Shown here: positions 2,845-33,686 of the stretch, piece by piece
How the letters are laid out: every line of letters starts with the position of its first letter
Numbering within the stretch: position 1 is the stretch's first letter
Notes under the pieces: model-generated
Seen by the model: only the letters and a program-made list of their open reading frames with translations
Databases searched by the model: none
Told to the model about the DNA's origin: nothing
Program-made: the position numbers and the translations under genes
From: Candidatus Hinthialibacter antarcticus
GTDB lineage: Bacteria > Hinthialibacterota > Hinthialibacteria > Hinthialibacterales > Hinthialibacteraceae
Direction: 5' to 3'
DNA: 53,426 nucleotides
NCBI GenBank assembly: GCA_030765645.1
Contig: JAVCCE010000044.1
Location: 1-53,426, forward strand

Positions 2845-5757
2845 ATGGATTCGTTTCGAATACTGCATCCATATTACCTGTTGTTATTGCTGGCGGTCCC
2901 GCTGCTGTGGTACACCGCCCGGCAGGTGCGCGTGTTGGGGCGCGGGCGCAAGTCTCTCACCCTGTTTTTGCGCACATTGGTGATTTTGTTCTTCATTCTG
3001 GCGTTGTCCGAAGTCGAGATGCTGGACCGCGGCGATACGCTGTCGATCTTTTTTGCCATTGACCGCTCCTCCAGCGTTCCCCAAGACCAACAACAATATG
3101 CGCTGGCCTATGTGCAGGAGCAACTCAATCAATTGCCGCCCGAAGACCTCGCGGGTATTTTGTTCTTCGGCAAAGAAGCCGCGATCCAGGAAAACCCCGG
3201 CGAAAGCGTGACCCTGCCTGAATATCAGGCGCTGGTTGATGCGGAAGGCACCGATATTGAATCCGCCGTGGGGTTGGCGATGGCGGCGTTTCAAGAGGGG
3301 ATGCAAAAGCGCATCGTCTTGCTGACCGACGGCAACCAGACCCAGGGCGATGCGGCGTCCGCCGTCCAACGCGCCAAAGCGGCGGGCATTGACGTTTGGG
3401 TGTTGCCGCTGGAATACGTGTATACCCAGGAAGTATTGCTCGAAGACGTGGTCTTGCCGTCGCGGATTCGAGAGAAAGAGCCGTTCACCGTTAAGGCGTT
3501 GGTCAACGCGCAAGAACAAGGCCCCGGCAAGTTGCGCTTATATGAAAACGGCGAACTCATCGCCGAAGAAGACGTTGAATTGGAACCCGGCAAAAACGCA
3601 TTTCAATTCACCCGCGAAATTGAATACAGCGGCGTTTATAATTACGAAGCCCAAATCGAAGCCGAAAACGACAAGCGCCCCTCAAACAACCGCGCCCAAA
3701 ACTCGGCCTTAATCAAGGGAATGCCCCGCATTTTGTTGCTGGAAGCCGAGCCGGATTTGGGGCAGTTTCTGGTTGCGGCGCTGCTTTCAGAAGGCATCCA
3801 AGTGGATATGCGCGCGCCCGAAGAGACGCCGCTGTCGATCCGTGAACTGCAAGCCTACGACAGCATAATCTTGTCGAACGTTTCGGCGGAGCGCATCCCG
3901 CCCTCGCAACAGCGCATGATCGAAACCGCTGTGCGCGACTTGGGCATTGGGCTAATCATGCTGGGCGGGCCGGACAGTTTCGGCGCGGGCGGCTGGCAAG
4001 GCTCGCCGATTGAAGAGGCGCTGCCGGTTGCGATGGATGTGAAGCAGCGCAAGGTTATCCCCAGCGGCGCTCTGGCGCTGATTATGCACTCGTGCGAAAT
4101 TCCTCAAGGCAATTACTGGTCGCAAGAAATTTCGGTCGCCGCGCTCAACGTGTTGGGACGTAACGATTACATGGGCTTTTTGCGTTTCAGTATGCAAGCG
4201 GGCGGGCCTGCCTGGCTGTTTCCTCTGACGAAGGTCGGCAGCAAGCGCGATATGAAAAACAAGATTCAAAATTTGCGGTTTAACGACATTGGCGACATGC
4301 CGTCGTTTGATAATACCTTGCAAAAGGCGTATGACTCGCTGGTTGAAGTCGAGGCTAACGTCAAGCATATCGTTATCCTCTCTGACGGCGATCCGGCGCA
4401 ACCCAGCCAAGGCTTGGTAGATGATATTATCGACGCGGGCATCACCATTTCGACGGTGTGCATCGCCCCGCACGGCATCAACGGCACTGCGGTCATGGAA
4501 GAACTGGCCGAGTATTGCAACGGCAAGTTTTATCATGTGAAGAACAACAAGAACCTGCCTAAGATTTTTATCAAAGAAGCCTCAACCATTCGCCGCAATA
4601 TGTTGGTGGAAGAAACCTTTACGCCGCGTTTGCGTCAAATGAGCGAAATGCTGTTGGGGTTTGAGAGCGGGTTCCCGTCGCTGGACGGATATGTCGTCGC
4701 CGGGTTCAAAGACCAGGCCGAAACGGTGTTGACCTCAGACAAAGAAGACCCGCTGTTGGCGCACTGGCGCTATGGGCTTGGCAAGACGGCTGCGTTTACC
4801 AGCGGCCCCAAAGCGCGTTGGGCGAACACTTGGCTGAGTTGGGAGCAATACGCCAAGTTCTGGGGACAATTGGTGCGTTGGACGCTGCGCAGCACCGAAG
4901 ACGATAACTTCGTCGTGCAGACCTCGGTCGAAGGCGACCGGGTGCGCATCGCCATTGATGCCATGACCGAAGACGGCGAATTTCTCAATGATCTCGATTT
5001 TAGCGGCGCTGTGTTGAACCCTTCGCTGGAACCGGTCGAGGTGGATATTCGCCAGACCCAGCCGGGGCGGTATGAAGCGGAACTGTCGGCCAAAGAAGCA
5101 GGCAGTTATTTGATGAACCTAGCGTACGAACAAAAAGGCGAACAACTCGAGGGGCGTTTGACGGCGGGAATCTCCGTCCCCTATTCGCCCGAACACAGCA
5201 CGACCAAACAAAATGACGTGATCCTGAAACAATTGCAGGAACTGTCCGCCAATCCATTTTTGGAGCCGGACCAATCCATCTTTGAGCATAATTTAATCGC
5301 TACGGGCGATATTAAACCGCTATGGCCGCTGATGATTGCTTTGGCGATAATCTTTTTCTTTTTGGATATCGCCGTGCGGCGCGTCTTCTTTGAACTCACC
5401 CAGTTAGAGGCTTTGTTGGGGAGAGTGAAGGCCTGGCTGTTGTATCCCTTCACGAGGCAATTGGCGCCGGTTGGCCCTGCGACCGAACAACTGGGCAACC
5501 TGATGCAGGCCAAGCAGCGCGCGGGGGAACAGTCGTTGGCCCAGGCGGGACAAAAGGAAGCGCTGCTGCAAAAATTAGAATCGCAGGGCGACATTGACGG
5601 TGCGCCTGAGGTCGCTGGCGCAAAAGACGAAGCGCCGTGGCAGGAAGTTAAACCCGGACAAGACGCCCCGCAGTTTGAAGAAGAGAAAAACGAATATACC
5701 AGCGCTTTGTTCCGCGCCAAACAGCGAGCGTCGTCGCAGATGAAAGATCGGAAATGA
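2845..5757 (+). CDS. Membrane-anchored von Willebrand factor A / glutamine amidotransferase-like protein
   Basis: A 970-residue protein of the BatA-like class often annotated as a glutamine-amidotransferase-like membrane protein. Two membrane segments (about 10-25 and 40-56) precede a vWA domain with a DxSxS metal site at D73-S75-S77. A beta-sandwich region (about 200-290) and an amidotransferase-like segment (about 290-400, with LGGPDSFGAGGW) follow. A second vWA-like region (about 415-590) has lost the metal site: the first-strand position reads IMHSCEIP. A third membrane helix lies at about 825-845, then a charged Gln/Ala/Glu-rich tail. Known relatives sit in the inner membrane with MoxR ATPases; none is present here. 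The stop overlaps the next gene by 4 nt (ATGA), so the two are translationally coupled. Confidence 0.85.
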   Translation: MDSFRILHPYYLLLLLAVPLLWYTARQVRVLGRGRKSLTLFLRTLVILFFILALSEVEMLDRGDTLSIFFAIDRSSSVPQDQQQYALAYVQEQLNQLPPEDLAGILFFGKEAAIQENPGESVTLPEYQALVDAEGTDIESAVGLAMAAFQEGMQKRIVLLTDGNQTQGDAASAVQRAKAAGIDVWVLPLEYVYTQEVLLEDVVLPSRIREKEPFTVKALVNAQEQGPGKLRLYENGELIAEEDVELEPGKNAFQFTREIEYSGVYNYEAQIEAENDKRPSNNRAQNSALIKGMPRILLLEAEPDLGQFLVAALLSEGIQVDMRAPEETPLSIRELQAYDSIILSNVSAERIPPSQQRMIETAVRDLGIGLIMLGGPDSFGAGGWQGSPIEEALPVAMDVKQRKVIPSGALALIMHSCEIPQGNYWSQEISVAALNVLGRNDYMGFLRFSMQAGGPAWLFPLTKVGSKRDMKNKIQNLRFNDIGDMPSFDNTLQKAYDSLVEVEANVKHIVILSDGDPAQPSQGLVDDIIDAGITISTVCIAPHGINGTAVMEELAEYCNGKFYHVKNNKNLPKIFIKEASTIRRNMLVEETFTPRLRQMSEMLLGFESGFPSLDGYVVAGFKDQAETVLTSDKEDPLLAHWRYGLGKTAAFTSGPKARWANTWLSWEQYAKFWGQLVRWTLRSTEDDNFVVQTSVEGDRVRIAIDAMTEDGEFLNDLDFSGAVLNPSLEPVEVDIRQTQPGRYEAELSAKEAGSYLMNLAYEQKGEQLEGRLTAGISVPYSPEHSTTKQNDVILKQLQELSANPFLEPDQSIFEHNLIATGDIKPLWPLMIALAIIFFFLDIAVRRVFFELTQLEALLGRVKAWLLYPFTRQLAPVGPATEQLGNLMQAKQRAGEQSLAQAGQKEALLQKLESQGDIDGAPEVAGAKDEAPWQEVKPGQDAPQFEEEKNEYTSALFRAKQRASSQMKDRK

Positions 5758-6539
5758 TTCAGGGCAATCAAGCGCATTTGGGTTTTATCAATCGGCGCCA
5801 AGCGCTCTTTGGCGTTGCGTCTGCATTGTTGGGCGCGGGGTGCAACACGGTTTCAAAAAAAAAACCGGAAGATGACCATGAACTCGACGCCGCGCCGCCG
5901 CCGTTTGAAATGGGGCTTTCGTACCATTACGACCATGTCGGCCCGCGTCCATTTGGTGAGGGCGACCGCGATTGCACCGGGGGGCGCGTGGTCAGCGTGT
6001 TGGGGCGCGACCCCGATTACCAGAACTTGTGGGTCGTCCAAGACCGCTTTGAATGCGAGCAGGGAATCGAGATCGGCTTGTATGACGACAAATACCGCCG
6101 TCATCGCCAGGGTCTGACAAGCGCGGCGGGCGTGATTCAAATCGAAGAAAAACCGCCTGCGCCAATTCGCTATCTCGAATTAAAAAAGAAAGACAAAAAG
6201 ACCTTTGAGACCGAACAGGTTTTTATGACCGCCGCAGGAGAAGTCGTCGGCGCCGCGCACATGACCGAGAATGTTGAACGCCGATTTGACTATCGCATCA
6301 TAAACCCGATTGGCGCGATCTTGTGCCGGTATTTTATCGTCGATGTTTCGATTGAGGCCGACCTGAACGGCGCCCCGGTGACGGTCGCTGCCAAAGTTGA
6401 ATCCTACTGGTCGGACAAACTGCACTGGTTCGTCCAGATGGAATATGAGTTCAAACCGATGCAGCGCGGCGGTAAGGCCGTCGGCCCCGCTTATCGCGCC
6501 AAGAGCGTTCTTAAAGACATTCAAGAAGCCGAGGCTTAG
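5754..6539 (+). CDS. Tat-signal putative lipoprotein, unknown function
   Basis: A 261-residue protein. Its N-terminus carries a twin Arg ([18 protein letters not shown]) that ends in a possible lipobox Cys at about residue 30, although the -3 residue is Gly and so atypical. It is therefore probably exported by Tat and lipidated. The mature part is beta-rich with no family I recognise. Aromatic and charged strands ([35 protein letters not shown]) look like a beta-barrel or lipocalin-like sandwich. It overlaps the vWA gene by ATGA, so it is probably a partner of that membrane protein. It is convergent with the copper ATPase, with a 4-nt overlap of stop codons. Confidence 0.72.
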
Positions 6540-8653
6540 TCCGCTTTGTTCCGTAATAGCAGCAGCGAGTTACTGACGACGCAGACCGAACTCATCGCCA
6601 TCGCGCCCGCTGCGAGCATGGGCGTTAAAAAGCCGAGAGCCGCCGCTGGAACCGCACAGACGTTGTAAAAGAACGCCCAGAATAAATTCTGTTTGATCTT
6701 ACGCAATGCGAGCCGACTGAGCTGAATGGCGCGTACGGCTTTGAGCGGGTCGTCGCCGATCAACACAATGTCGCCGCTTTCTTTGGCGACGTCCGTACCG
6801 CCGCCCATGGCGACGCCGATGTCGGCTTGCGCTAATGCGGGGGCATCATTGACGCCGTCGCCCGCCATGGCGACGATGCCGCCCTGCTTCTGTAATGTTT
6901 GGATAACGTCCGCTTTTTGTGTAGGGCGTACTTCCGCAAAAACGCTTTTAATTCCCAATTTATTTGCAACCGCCTCGGCGGTTTCTTGTTTATCGCCTGA
7001 TAATAAATGGACGGTCAGCCCCATGGCTTGCAACTGCTGGATCGCTGGTTTTGACGACGTTCGTATCTGGTCGCGGAGCGCGAATGCGCCAGCGGCTTGT
7101 TTGTCGTTTGCACATGCAACGACGGTCTGTCCGCGTTGCGCCGCTTGTTGCGTCCATTCGGTCAGGGCGGACGTATCAATGTCGTTCTCGTTTAGGAACG
7201 CAATCGAGCCGATGTGGATTTGCGCGCCGCCCGCATCGGCGATGACGCCGCCGCCGCTTTGTTCGTTGACGGCGTGTGGTTCCTGAATGTGGAGTTGCTT
7301 TTCCTGCGCATGTCTCACAATCGCTTGCGCGAGCGGATGCCGCGAGGCGGACTCAACGGACGCAGCCAGCGCAAGCCAATCATCATTATGAAGCGAGGTC
7401 GAGTCAGAGACGGCGGGCCTGCCTTCGGTCAGAGTTCCTGTTTTATCGAACACGAAATCGGTGAGTTGTCCGGCTTGTTCGAGGGTATGGGCTTCTTTGA
7501 TGAGGATGCCTTCGCGCGCGCCCTTGGCGGTTCCGGCCATGACGGCGGTGGGAGTGGCGAGTCCTAACGCGCAGGGGCAGGCGATAATCAACACCGCTAC
7601 CGCATTCACCATCGCGGTGGTGATCTCATGCGGTTGCGCCCAGGCCCATCCGGCGAATGTGAGTGCCGCGACAACGATAATCACCGGGACGAACACGGCG
7701 GATACGCGGTCGGCGAGGCGTTGTACGTCGGCCTTCGATTCTTGGGCGCGACGCACGAAATCGACGATGCGTTGCAGGGCGGCGTCGGAACCGGTGTGGG
7801 TGACTTCGAGTTCGATCACGCCAGTTAGGTTTAATGTGCCGCCGACGGTTTCATCGCCGACGCTTTTCTCAACCGGCATGCTCTCGCCAGTCAGCATGGA
7901 CTCATCAATGGTCGATTGGCCCTTGATGATGGTTCCGTCTAGTGGGATTGACTCGCTGGGGCGAACGCGGATGCGCGCTCCGGGTTGGATTTCTTCGACT
8001 GCGACCGTGCGTTCTTCTCCGTCTTCGAGTAGATGGGCAGTCGGCGGCGACAGGTCAAGCAAGGATTCGACCGCTGACGCCGCCGCGCCGCGTGCGCGGG
8101 TTTCGAGATATTTGCCGATAGAGATCAACGTCAAAATCATCGCGGCGCCGTCGAAATAGAGCGGCGCATCCGGCAAAAATAAACTGACGACGCTGAATCC
8201 ATAGGCGGCGCTTGCGCCCAATACGATCAGGGTGTCCATTGTGGTCGCGCCGTGGCGCGCCGCTTTGAACGCCGCTTTGTAAAACGGGAACCCGACATAC
8301 GCTTGAACAATCGTCGCCAGAATAAAAATGACAAATTCCGATCCGGGAAATGAGACGCCCATGCTCAACGCCATGATTGGAACGCAGAGCGCCGAGCCGA
8401 CGATCATCCGCCGCAGCCATCCGCGTAATGCGCGTTTGCGTTCGGAGTCTTTCGCGTTGCGGGATTGTTGCTCTATGGGCGCGGCGTCATACCCGGCGTT
8501 TTTCACCGCTTGGACGAAATCGCTCTCGGAGACCGCGTCGTCTGGCGTGACAATTGAGGCTTGTTCGGTGGCGAGATTGACGCGCACTTGTGCGTTGGGC
8601 GCGGCGGATTGCAGCGCTTTTTCTACGCGGCTGACGCAGGAGGCGCAAGTCAT
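6536..8653 (-). CDS. copA: Copper-translocating P-type ATPase (CopA), main reading frame
   Basis: A P1B-type ATPase that exports Cu(+) across the inner membrane. The 705 residues counted from the only in-frame ATG show the CxxC of a heavy-metal domain at C3/C6, the TGES actuator motif, the intramembrane CPC at 359-361, the phosphorylated Asp403 in DKTGT, the HP motif (SRHPLAQ) and [10 protein letters not shown]. The YN and MSSV motifs of the last helices fit Cu(+) specificity. The start is the problem: the ATG falls inside the metal-binding domain and removes its first beta-strand. The frame stays open 29 codons further upstream (to 8743) with that strand present (TIRLSIQG) but no ATG, GTG or TTG. 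The frame is reached from the upstream copZ-like frame by a -1 shift in an A9 run, giving a protein of about 805 residues with two metal-binding domains. Confidence 0.93.
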
Positions 8654-8727
8654 GCCCTGGATCGATAAGCGTATGGTCGCGTTAGCGTCAATTGCTTGCG
8701 TTTCAGGCGGGCAATCAGAGGGCGCGT

Positions 8728-8946
8728 CTACGGTTTTTTTTTAACGGGGGTGAAATCGGCCTGCTGGACGGCGTCAAACAGCGCGTCCTCATTGGTCTGG
8801 CCGGAGTCATATTCAACAACGGCTTGTTTGCTGTCTAACTCAACCTGGACGGACGAAACGCCCGGGATAGATTCTAAGGCTTTGGTTGCGGATTTAACGC
8901 AATGCCCGCAAGTCATGCCTTCGATCAAGAATGTCGTGGAAGTCAT
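8728..8946 (-). CDS. copZ: Copper chaperone CopZ-like heavy-metal domain, probable N-terminus of CopA
   Basis: A 72-residue HMA domain with the metal ligands in GMTCGHC at residues 10-16 and the usual beta-alpha-beta order. The ATG at 8946 follows AAGGATTTTCT, a good ribosome-binding site. Read alone it is a free copper chaperone, but it ends VKKKP-stop on a run of nine A. One extra base would continue it directly into the ATPase frame through a Pro/Asp-rich linker. Either the cell makes both a short chaperone and a long pump through slippage, as known for Escherichia coli copA, or the A run is miscounted and this is one gene. Confidence 0.8.
8734..8742 (-). promoter_or_regulatory. A9 slippery run joining copZ and copA frames
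   Basis: On the minus strand the run of nine A is read as three Lys codons in the copZ frame, followed by CCG TAG. A -1 ribosomal shift, or one extra A added by RNA polymerase, continues reading into ACC GTA GAC and the ATPase. An A9 run satisfies the A-AAA-AAA slippery heptamer, and A9 is also a known length for transcriptional slippage. I see no clear stimulatory hairpin just downstream, and no strong internal Shine-Dalgarno sequence upstream. Confidence 0.6.
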
Positions 8947-8995
8947 AGAAAATCCTTAAAAAATCGAACCAGCAATTAAAAAGGCGGATATCGAA

Positions 8996-9060: not shown

Positions 9061-9369
9061 TTATCCTCCCGCCGTCTCCGCGTCCCAATCAGGGCCGTTG
9101 GTGACTTGGTCTTTTGCATTGCGCCGCAAATCTTCCTGGAACTCGAAGTTCGCATTTTTCTCGATGTACTCTTGTTGTTCCTTGGGAACTTCATCTTCCG
9201 GAAAAATTGCGTTGACCGGACACACCGGAGCGCAGGCGTCGCAATCAATACACTCATCAGGGTTGATTAAAAGTTGATCTTCGCCTTCATAAAAACATTC
9301 GACCGGACAGACTTCTGCGCAGTCGCCGTATTTGCACTTCACGCAGGGTTCGCCAACCACATACGTCAT
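9061..9369 (-). CDS. fdxA: 7Fe ferredoxin, FdxA type
   Basis: A 102-residue soluble electron carrier. The N-terminal cysteines ([17 protein letters not shown]) and the second set ([13 protein letters not shown]) match ferredoxins with one 3Fe-4S and one 4Fe-4S cluster. The acidic C-terminal helix is usual for the family. The ATG at 9369 is preceded by AAGGAGAACC, a strong ribosome-binding site. A small hairpin (AGAAGC-AAAG-GCTTCT, 9041-9056) follows the stop without a T run, so it is at best a weak terminator before copZ. The electron partner cannot be told from the neighbours. Confidence 0.92.
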
Positions 9370-31749: not shown

Positions 31750-32871
31750 TCAAGCGGCTTCTTCATTTGCGTCTTCCAGTTCATCTTCAAAATCTACGGA
31801 TTCGTCCGTCAGCGGTTCTGCCGGAAAAATACGATGCAGCCGCAAACAAGTATAGAAGAACATGGCCCCGCCCACGAACAGATACATGTGATAGGTGAAA
31901 AAGCGCCAAATCAAAATCACGACGCCAACTAAGTGCGGCGGGATGATTTTGCTTAACACAAAATACGACATCACTTCGACGCCGCCGCCGCCGCCGGGCA
32001 GTACGATCATCAACGACAGCGTGAACAACACGCCTTGCAGTAAAAAGAAAAACACCGGTTGGTGATGGATATTAAACGCAAACAAAATCAGCGGCAGCGC
32101 GCCGTAACGGCAGGTCCATTGAATGCTGGCGAATACGAAATTCAGAAATAAAACGCCGCGCTTGACTTGGTATAAATGAGTGATGCCTTGCTTCATTTTG
32201 ATGAACTCTTTAACGAAACGCCATTCATACCAACGCACCCGGGCGGGCATTCGGTGTTTGTCCGCCCACTTCCAGCGCGCCAGTCCGCGAATCATGCGGA
32301 CCATGAATCCTAAACGGACCGCAAGCGCCAGCCCGCCGATGATCGCCGCGATGATGAACAGCATGACCAGAAAGCGCGGGCCGTCGATGGGCGGTAGTTC
32401 GCTGCGCACCACGGGTTCATGCAGCAGCGCGTAAAACGTAAGCGGCAGCAACAATGCGAAAAAGACGCAATCGACCGCAACGTCAATCGCCAACATCGAA
32501 GCGCCGTGCGCAATCGGGACGCCGCCGCGATGCAGCAGCGACAGGCGAATGACAGTACCGCCGACGCCCGCCGGGGTGGCGGCGATGCCGAATTCAGTCG
32601 AGAGCGAAACCGACAAACTTTGTATGTATGTAAGTGGGTAGCCTAATGAGCGCGAGAGAATATATACGCGGGCGCCGTTGCACAACCACGCGGTGATAAT
32701 CATTGGAAACAAGAGAAGCAAAAATCCCCAACGGAACGAAGCCAAGTCGGCGAAGGTTTGCGCTTCCTGAGTGTACCAAAACACGCCGCTGGTCGCGAGG
32801 ACGCCCAACACGGCGCCTTGGATTCCATAACGAAGCATGTCGTTACGCGTCAGTTTTTTTTTGGTGGTCAT
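31750..32871 (-). CDS. Flippase-like multispan membrane protein (LPG synthase TM / UPF0104 family)
   Basis: A 373-residue protein with about eight membrane helices. It matches the lysylphosphatidylglycerol synthase transmembrane/UPF0104 family: the NGARVYILSRSLGYPLTYIQ segment, the SLSTEFGIAATPAGVGGTVIRL loop and LPGGGGGVEVMSYF near the end. Members of this family are thought to move lipid or glycolipid intermediates. Its ATG overlaps the TGA of the deacetylase gene (ATGA). Position after a glycosyltransferase and a deacetylase suggests it moves or helps make a glycolipid; the substrate is inference. Confidence 0.82.
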   Translation of the reverse strand: MTTKKKLTRNDMLRYGIQGAVLGVLATSGVFWYTQEAQTFADLASFRWGFLLLLFPMIITAWLCNGARVYILSRSLGYPLTYIQSLSVSLSTEFGIAATPAGVGGTVIRLSLLHRGGVPIAHGASMLAIDVAVDCVFFALLLPLTFYALLHEPVVRSELPPIDGPRFLVMLFIIAAIIGGLALAVRLGFMVRMIRGLARWKWADKHRMPARVRWYEWRFVKEFIKMKQGITHLYQVKRGVLFLNFVFASIQWTCRYGALPLILFAFNIHHQPVFFFLLQGVLFTLSLMIVLPGGGGGVEVMSYFVLSKIIPPHLVGVVILIWRFFTYHMYLFVGGAMFFYTCLRLHRIFPAEPLTDESVDFEDELEDANEEAA

Positions 32872-33686
32872 GGGTTCGTCGAACTCATTGCATCCTTGGC
32901 TGAATTGCCTGTTGCCGGACGCCCTGTTTTGCGCGGCGAGCAGCCGTCGGCGACATCCGCGTAGGTCATTGGCTGCCGCGTCAAGAGCGCCTCGCGCGCC
33001 AACGCTTTCAGCATATCGCGAACGGCGGGGTATTTCAAATCGCCGGGATGGACCGCAAGGCGCAAGACCGGCGCGTTATGATTATAGAATTTCCAAAACC
33101 GCACCCAGGGCTTCGAAATGGTTCGGCGTAAAAGGGTGCGGCAGCTGAAGGTCAGCGTCGGAGCGTTAATGCGAATGTTTTGTTGGAGCGCCTCGACCCT
33201 GTTCCAGTATGTCGTGAACTCGAACCCGCTGTCGATCAGTGCGCGACGCGCGTCGGGGCTGAGCAGCCAGGCGGGCGCGACGAACCCGCGCGTCTTGAGG
33301 CCCATGCGCTCAAACATGTCTTTACCGCGTTGCAAATTGGCAAGCGCGTCTTCGTAATTGAGTTGATAAAACTCGCCTTCGCGGGCGGTATAGATATTGC
33401 CCATAAATTGCTGCAACAACCCGCCGTCGATCGAATCCGCGAGATGGGTGTATCCATGCAGGGTGATCTCGTGGCCTTGCGCGGCGCAGTCTCTCAGCCA
33501 GGCGGCGAAGTCGGTGTTCTGATCGGTGTCTTCTCCACCGTGCCATTGAGGCACCACTAGCAACGAGACGCGCTCGACGCCAATCGAATGCATGTCATCC
33601 AGAAATAGACGGCAGGCGTCCCACGAATGCGGCGCCAAATCATGAAACGAAACGACGAAGGATAATCGTTGTCCTTGCCAGATCAT
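32868..33686 (-). CDS. DUF2334 polysaccharide deacetylase-like protein
   Basis: A 272-residue cytoplasmic protein with a carbohydrate-esterase-4-like fold. The N-terminal SFHDLAPHSWDAC supplies the catalytic Asp and His, and the second metal site is HEITLHGYTH. Later RGFVAPAWLLSPDARRAL matches the R-F/APxW motif. A His-containing RLAVHPGDL completes the site. All metal-binding landmarks appear intact, so it is probably an active sugar or glycolipid N-deacetylase. It overlaps both neighbours by 4 nt (ATGA) and is translationally coupled to them. Confidence 0.85.
   Translation of the reverse strand: MIWQGQRLSFVVSFHDLAPHSWDACRLFLDDMHSIGVERVSLLVVPQWHGGEDTDQNTDFAAWLRDCAAQGHEITLHGYTHLADSIDGGLLQQFMGNIYTAREGEFYQLNYEDALANLQRGKDMFERMGLKTRGFVAPAWLLSPDARRALIDSGFEFTTYWNRVEALQQNIRINAPTLTFSCRTLLRRTISKPWVRFWKFYNHNAPVLRLAVHPGDLKYPAVRDMLKALAREALLTRQPMTYADVADGCSPRKTGRPATGNSAKDAMSSTNP

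Follow-up and report, generated by a model that had tools for sequence, protein, structure and literature searches.

The locus described here lies on the minus strand of a 53,426-nucleotide stretch of DNA from Candidatus Hinthialibacter antarcticus, the whole of which is referred to as the window. Along this strand, a ferredoxin gene is followed by copZ and then by copA, and the frames of the two copper genes meet at a run of nine adenines (A9; Table 1). The product of copZ is a stand-alone HMA domain with a CxxC motif (Pfam HMA, 6.5e-17, 62 bits versus 24.8). It falls under the curated cutoff of the NCBIfam CopZ metallochaperone models (best 70.3 bits versus 85, 1.4e-19), and the corresponding copZ of a related genome, discussed below, lies above the cutoff for TIGR00003 only among these models (65.7 versus 62). 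CopZ is best explained as the default (0-frame) product of the locus. A preliminary description of this DNA had placed the end of a copZ-like frame, VKKKP-stop, on nine A's at 8734-8742, and this is precisely what the minus strand reads.

Table 1. Positions of the copper locus and of a control homopolymer in the window.
Feature	Position	Strand	Description	Basis
Ferredoxin, 5' of copZ	9061..9369	(-)	order and neighbour matched in L003, 767-1075	
Shine-Dalgarno-like AAGGA of copZ	8953..8957	(-)	6 nt 5' of the copZ ATG	direct read
copZ frame	8946-8728	(-)	72 aa, GMTCGHC, ends VKKKP-TAG; 0-frame product	ORF, Pfam HMA
A9 slippery run (candidate)	8742-8734	(-)	copZ reading is GTT AAA AAA AAA CCG TAG	direct read
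copA frame, -1 relative to copZ	6536..8740	(-)	Cu-translocating P-type ATPase, uninterrupted between the A run and its stop	ORF, TIGR01511/TIGR01525
Linker, -1 frame only	8669..8733	(-)	acidic/Pro/Ser-rich, without ATG/GTG/TTG	
ATPase HMA domain	8486..8668	(-)	first strand 5' of the only early ATG	Pfam HMA 2.2e-12, residues 24-84
First ATG of the ATPase frame	8651..8653	(-)	Met of GMTCASC, within its own HMA domain	
Control A10 run	5855..5864	(+)	in frame in the convergent gene 5754-6539; L003 orthologue 4466-3654 matches both sides	

The translation of the downstream frame carries CPCALG and DKTGT, the motifs of Cu-translocating P1B ATPases (CopA), and scores above the curated cutoffs of both TIGR01511 (586.6 bits, cutoff 397) and TIGR01525 (625.8 bits, cutoff 346). 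The frame opens after a TAA at 8743-8741, two A's of which are the first two of the A9. The preliminary description had it opening two bases before the run; the frame is indeed open from the run, but the stop codon that opens it overlaps the run. Similarly, the interval given there, 8728-8946, delimits the copZ frame correctly, but the feature as a whole runs on to 6536.

In neither the window nor the related genome does the ATPase frame contain an ATG, GTG or TTG 5' of its CxxC motif. The first such codon in the window was claimed to be an ATG inside the metal-binding domain of the ATPase itself, and it is: the codon at 8653 encodes the Met of GMTCASC, and the Pfam HMA match begins five residues ahead of it. 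Of 101 homologues whose ATPase frame includes a metal-binding motif, all but these two have a start codon ahead of the CxxC. Because the residues preceding the only early ATG are conserved (TIRLSIQG / TIRLAIEG), translation of the ATPase appears to enter from upstream in the -1 frame and, as judged from the sequence, some form of recoding would be the simplest route to making the enzyme.

An orthologous locus in a second genus

Among 14 genomes of the phylum, one other carries the locus, namely G004, which belongs to another genus of the same family. Its locus (L003) is syntenic, comprising ferredoxin, copZ, copA and a convergent lipoprotein-like gene, and has an A9 at 1402-1410. There, copZ ends VKKN-TGA (read GTA AAA AAA AAC TGA), the ATPase again lies at -1 relative to copZ, and GMTCASC is again without a canonical start 5' of it. 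The two-ORF arrangement is thus common to two genera of one family. Between the window and G004, 450 of 732 amino acids of the ATPase (~62%) and ~54% of those of CopZ are identical. Fourfold sites are 44% identical for the ATPase and 28% for copZ. Composition alone predicts ~35%, by arithmetic from the listed values, and silent positions are thus nearly saturated. The linker has ~20 codons in the window versus 35 in G004 and does not permit an alignment. In addition, the A run lies one base nearer the start of the Val codon in G004 (GTA followed by A8 and C, versus GTT followed by A9 and C), with the frame relation still at -1. Thus, the exact A9 and the -1 step have been kept while silent sites, linker and run offset diverged around them. 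The strong conservation of amino acids alongside diverged silent sites argues for production of the ATPase in both lineages.

The pump is patchy within this family, missing from G001, G003 and G005, in which no CopA match was found, and present in other members. In G002, a further member of the family, the ATPase is a different one, and its frame includes no HMA motif. Elsewhere, copZ and copA stand side by side, each with a start of its own, at L009, L014, L071 and L094, and a locus from Sumerlaeota (L040) encodes an unbroken CopZ-linker-CopA fusion without an A run. At 2990-3560 of L040, a stand-alone HMA gene is directly followed by this in-frame fusion, which places three metal-binding domains in a row. 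Since distant relatives such as L040 have unbroken genes without an A run, the device seems restricted to this lineage within the genomes sampled. The idea that relatives might keep the A9 and the two frames is borne out by the one close orthologue, with its A9, -1 step and missing start. A search of 386 genomes for an A9 followed by a GMTC motif within 60-90 nt returned only the window, which is a limited negative because the spacing in G004 is 123 nt and lies outside that range.

The comparison with G004 also bears on a route to the pump that dispenses with slippage, in which copA is a separate gene whose translation is coupled to copZ termination and begins at a non-canonical codon (ATT, ATC or CTG) or at the ATG of the metal-binding motif. 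Among the homologues, there are indeed neighbouring copZ and copA genes that start independently. However, a canonical start 5' of the CxxC is missing in both genomes, and the non-canonical codons available are weak, have no Shine-Dalgarno sequence and fall at non-matching places, namely ATT at codon 16 in the window but CTG at codon 1 and ATC at codons 13 and 29 in G004. Initiation at the ATG would cut the first strand off a conserved domain, and the Met at codon 111 in the window is not conserved in G004. As a separate copA gene would furthermore leave the conserved A9 unexplained, we consider it very improbable.

Run length and the joining of the frames

The length of the run dictates which frames connect. 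In the window, an A10 joins them into a protein of 803 aa and an A7 into one of 802 aa, while A8 and A11 lead to dead ends of 76-77 aa. The joined frames of G004 encode 819 aa. In both genomes, the frames are joined only by one A gained or two A's lost, and the third register stops a few codons past the run. The original proposal that a -1 shift or one extra A would unite the two frames is correct, and the 803-aa product of A10 contains the acidic, Pro-rich linker.

One reading of this dependence is that the true run is A10 in both organisms and that the locus encodes an ordinary in-frame CopZ-CopA fusion, from which both assemblies dropped one A. A -1 step at both splits is exactly the effect of losing one A from A10, and unbroken fusions are known elsewhere (L040). 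The preliminary description had named such a miscount as the main alternative, but the G004 orthologue and the homopolymer controls speak against it as the leading reading. It is now unlikely. Error would be needed at the same gene in two separate assemblies, whereas an in-frame A10 was kept 2.9 kb off on the same contig. Nor is a deficit of A10 seen in the run counts, as exact A8, A9 and A10 runs number 567, 61 and 5 in G000, the genome of the window (5.15 Mb), and 365, 50 and 12 in G004 (5.5 Mb). Given these numbers of A9 runs genome-wide, an exact A9 at both orthologous junctions, with its -1 relation and missing start, exceeds what chance would give. Of ~124 A/T runs of nine or more classified in the two genomes, 46 lie in open frames passing through; the copZ/copA orthologous pair is the only clear gene split among them, in a classification by ORFs only that could overlook some broken genes. 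Five weak split candidates (L135, L202, L203, L233 and L235) were set aside, on ORF lengths only, as short ORFs arising by chance or ordinary genes with a start close by. Finally, an in-frame A10 conserved at near-saturated divergence would itself call for explanation.

Other long runs deserve a brief description. The A9:A10 ratio is unlike between these similar-sized genomes, at 61:5 in G000 versus 50:12 in G004. The control A10 of the window sits just past the signal of gene 5754-6539 (+), which has a Tat/lipoprotein-like start (RRQALFG...LLGAGC), and the G004 orthologue at L003 4466-3654 is without a long A run there. This A10 is possibly a second slippage site. Another A9, at 32854-32862 (-), is in frame just past the start of a 373-aa membrane-protein ORF (ATG ACC ACC AAA AAA AAA CTG), which at its start overlaps the end of the ORF before it, 32868-33686.

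The run could also be a genetic switch. Replication slippage would then toggle it between A9 (CopZ only) and A10 or A7 (CopZ-CopA), turning the pump on and off across the population. Long homopolymers often mutate, phase-variable proteins include transporters (PMC3711429), and minor run lengths would be masked by an assembly consensus. Nevertheless, the A9 state is identical in both genomes, it would seem costly for most cells to be deprived of the pump, and phase variation would be expected mostly in surface-exposed or host-interaction genes. A switch of this type is quite improbable at the copper locus.

Probable slippage on the A9 and known recoded genes

The interpretation that we favour, with a probability of about 0.75, is that copZ and copA constitute one recoded gene, which would yield the chaperone by default and a CopZ-CopA fusion by slippage on the A9. 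Translation from the copZ ATG would give a free 72-aa copper chaperone ending at the stop just past the run. In a fraction of passages, slippage on the A9 would instead give a fusion of ~803 aa, composed in order of the CopZ domain, the acidic, Pro-rich linker, the metal-binding domain of the ATPase and the P1B copper ATPase. Such slippage may take two forms: RNA polymerase could put one extra A into the mRNA (A10), or the ribosome could step back by one at A_AAA_AAA. Since the frames are joined only by a slip on nine A's, and this in two related, well-separated genomes, the locus probably makes both the carrier and the carrier-pump fusion. We infer that slippage takes place in these cells at some rate and that copper export involves both products.

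Transcriptional slippage is slightly favoured over ribosomal -1 frameshifting, the form assumed in the preliminary description by analogy with E. coli, and the sequence does not decide between them. The preference rests on the lack of a conserved stimulator, on the known slipperiness of A9 by itself, and on the low rate reported for unstimulated ribosomal slippage in E. coli, ~0.3% for the three best heptamers (PMC4066793). When the 60 nt before each junction and as many as 85 nt after it were folded, no RNA stimulator common to the window and G004 emerged; the downstream hairpin is marginal in G004/L003 (z about -2), and the window does not have it (z about -0.6). Likewise, no conserved Shine-Dalgarno-like stimulator was found at the two junctions. 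One consideration counts against the reading based on A9. Lys codons are biased to AAA (27:6 and 31:8), which makes A runs at a Lys-rich domain end less surprising.

Programmed -1 ribosomal frameshifting in E. coli copA was reportedly described by Meydan et al. in 2017, and the slip site of that gene is a heptamer of the CCCAAAG type, followed by an RNA structure. In E. coli, the chaperone comes from the first part of the pump gene through ribosomal -1 frameshifting (PMC5009743). There, and by our reading in the window, one locus gives rise to a metal-binding chaperone of ~70 aa and a full copper ATPase that have their N-terminus in common and are related by a -1 change of register. The logic would be reversed, however, as the preliminary description had pointed out together with the pure homopolymer nature of the signal. 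The 0 frame of E. coli copA encodes the full 834-aa pump and the shift leads to the short product, whereas here the 0 frame ends after copZ, giving the chaperone, and the pump would need slippage. The slip site also differs, being a pure A9 without a conserved stimulator, and the window locus has neither the 0-frame full pump nor the conserved downstream RNA structure of the E. coli type. A reversal of the same kind between default and shifted products has been noted for dnaX in some bacteria (PMC5009743). As the organisms are unrelated, an origin separate from that of E. coli copA recoding looks probable.

A second group of comparable genes consists of those in which two ORFs are divided by poly-A. 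Two-ORF dnaX genes with poly-A runs are found in Chlorobi and others, magnesium chelatase provides a further instance, and a chelatase gene cassette with nine A's underwent 40% frameshifting in E. coli (PMC3711429). Citrobacter tssM carries an A11 run ahead of a stop codon and is rescued through transcriptional slippage at that run, with both products being required (PMC4256274). The likeness to dnaX, magnesium chelatase and tssM is that a long A run closes the 0-frame ORF and the next ORF lies in another frame, that slippage leads (or here would lead) to the full-length protein, and that unbroken fusions exist in other taxa. Indeed, the window locus has an A9 at the end of its first ORF, compared with runs of 7 to 11 in the described cases, and a shifted second ORF without a start; it is kept across genera and has an unbroken fusion homologue (L040). 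It differs in being another gene, a two-domain metal pump of which the short product would be a free chaperone, and in being known from sequence alone. Ordinary copZ-copA operons and in-frame multi-HMA CopA proteins (L009, L040 and others) have the same domains in the same order, but their copA has its own start or is fused in frame, and the junction is without an A9. The window locus is probably a variant of the already known poly-A recoding with a separate origin.

It is reasonably likely that chaperone and pump are supplied in a set ratio from one gene via A9 slippage, with a logic opposite to that of E. coli copA, and chaperone/pump recoding would then have had a separate origin in a phylum that has been sampled sparsely. 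If true, the locus would be a natural recoding switch, apparently opposite to the known one of E. coli, and copper chaperone/pump recoding would have arisen at least twice, with different slip sites and opposite default products. Such a pattern would suggest that selection favours a fixed chaperone:pump ratio out of a single message. Working copper pumps of little-studied phyla would also be concealed by automated annotation, which labels such genes as split or as pseudogenes.
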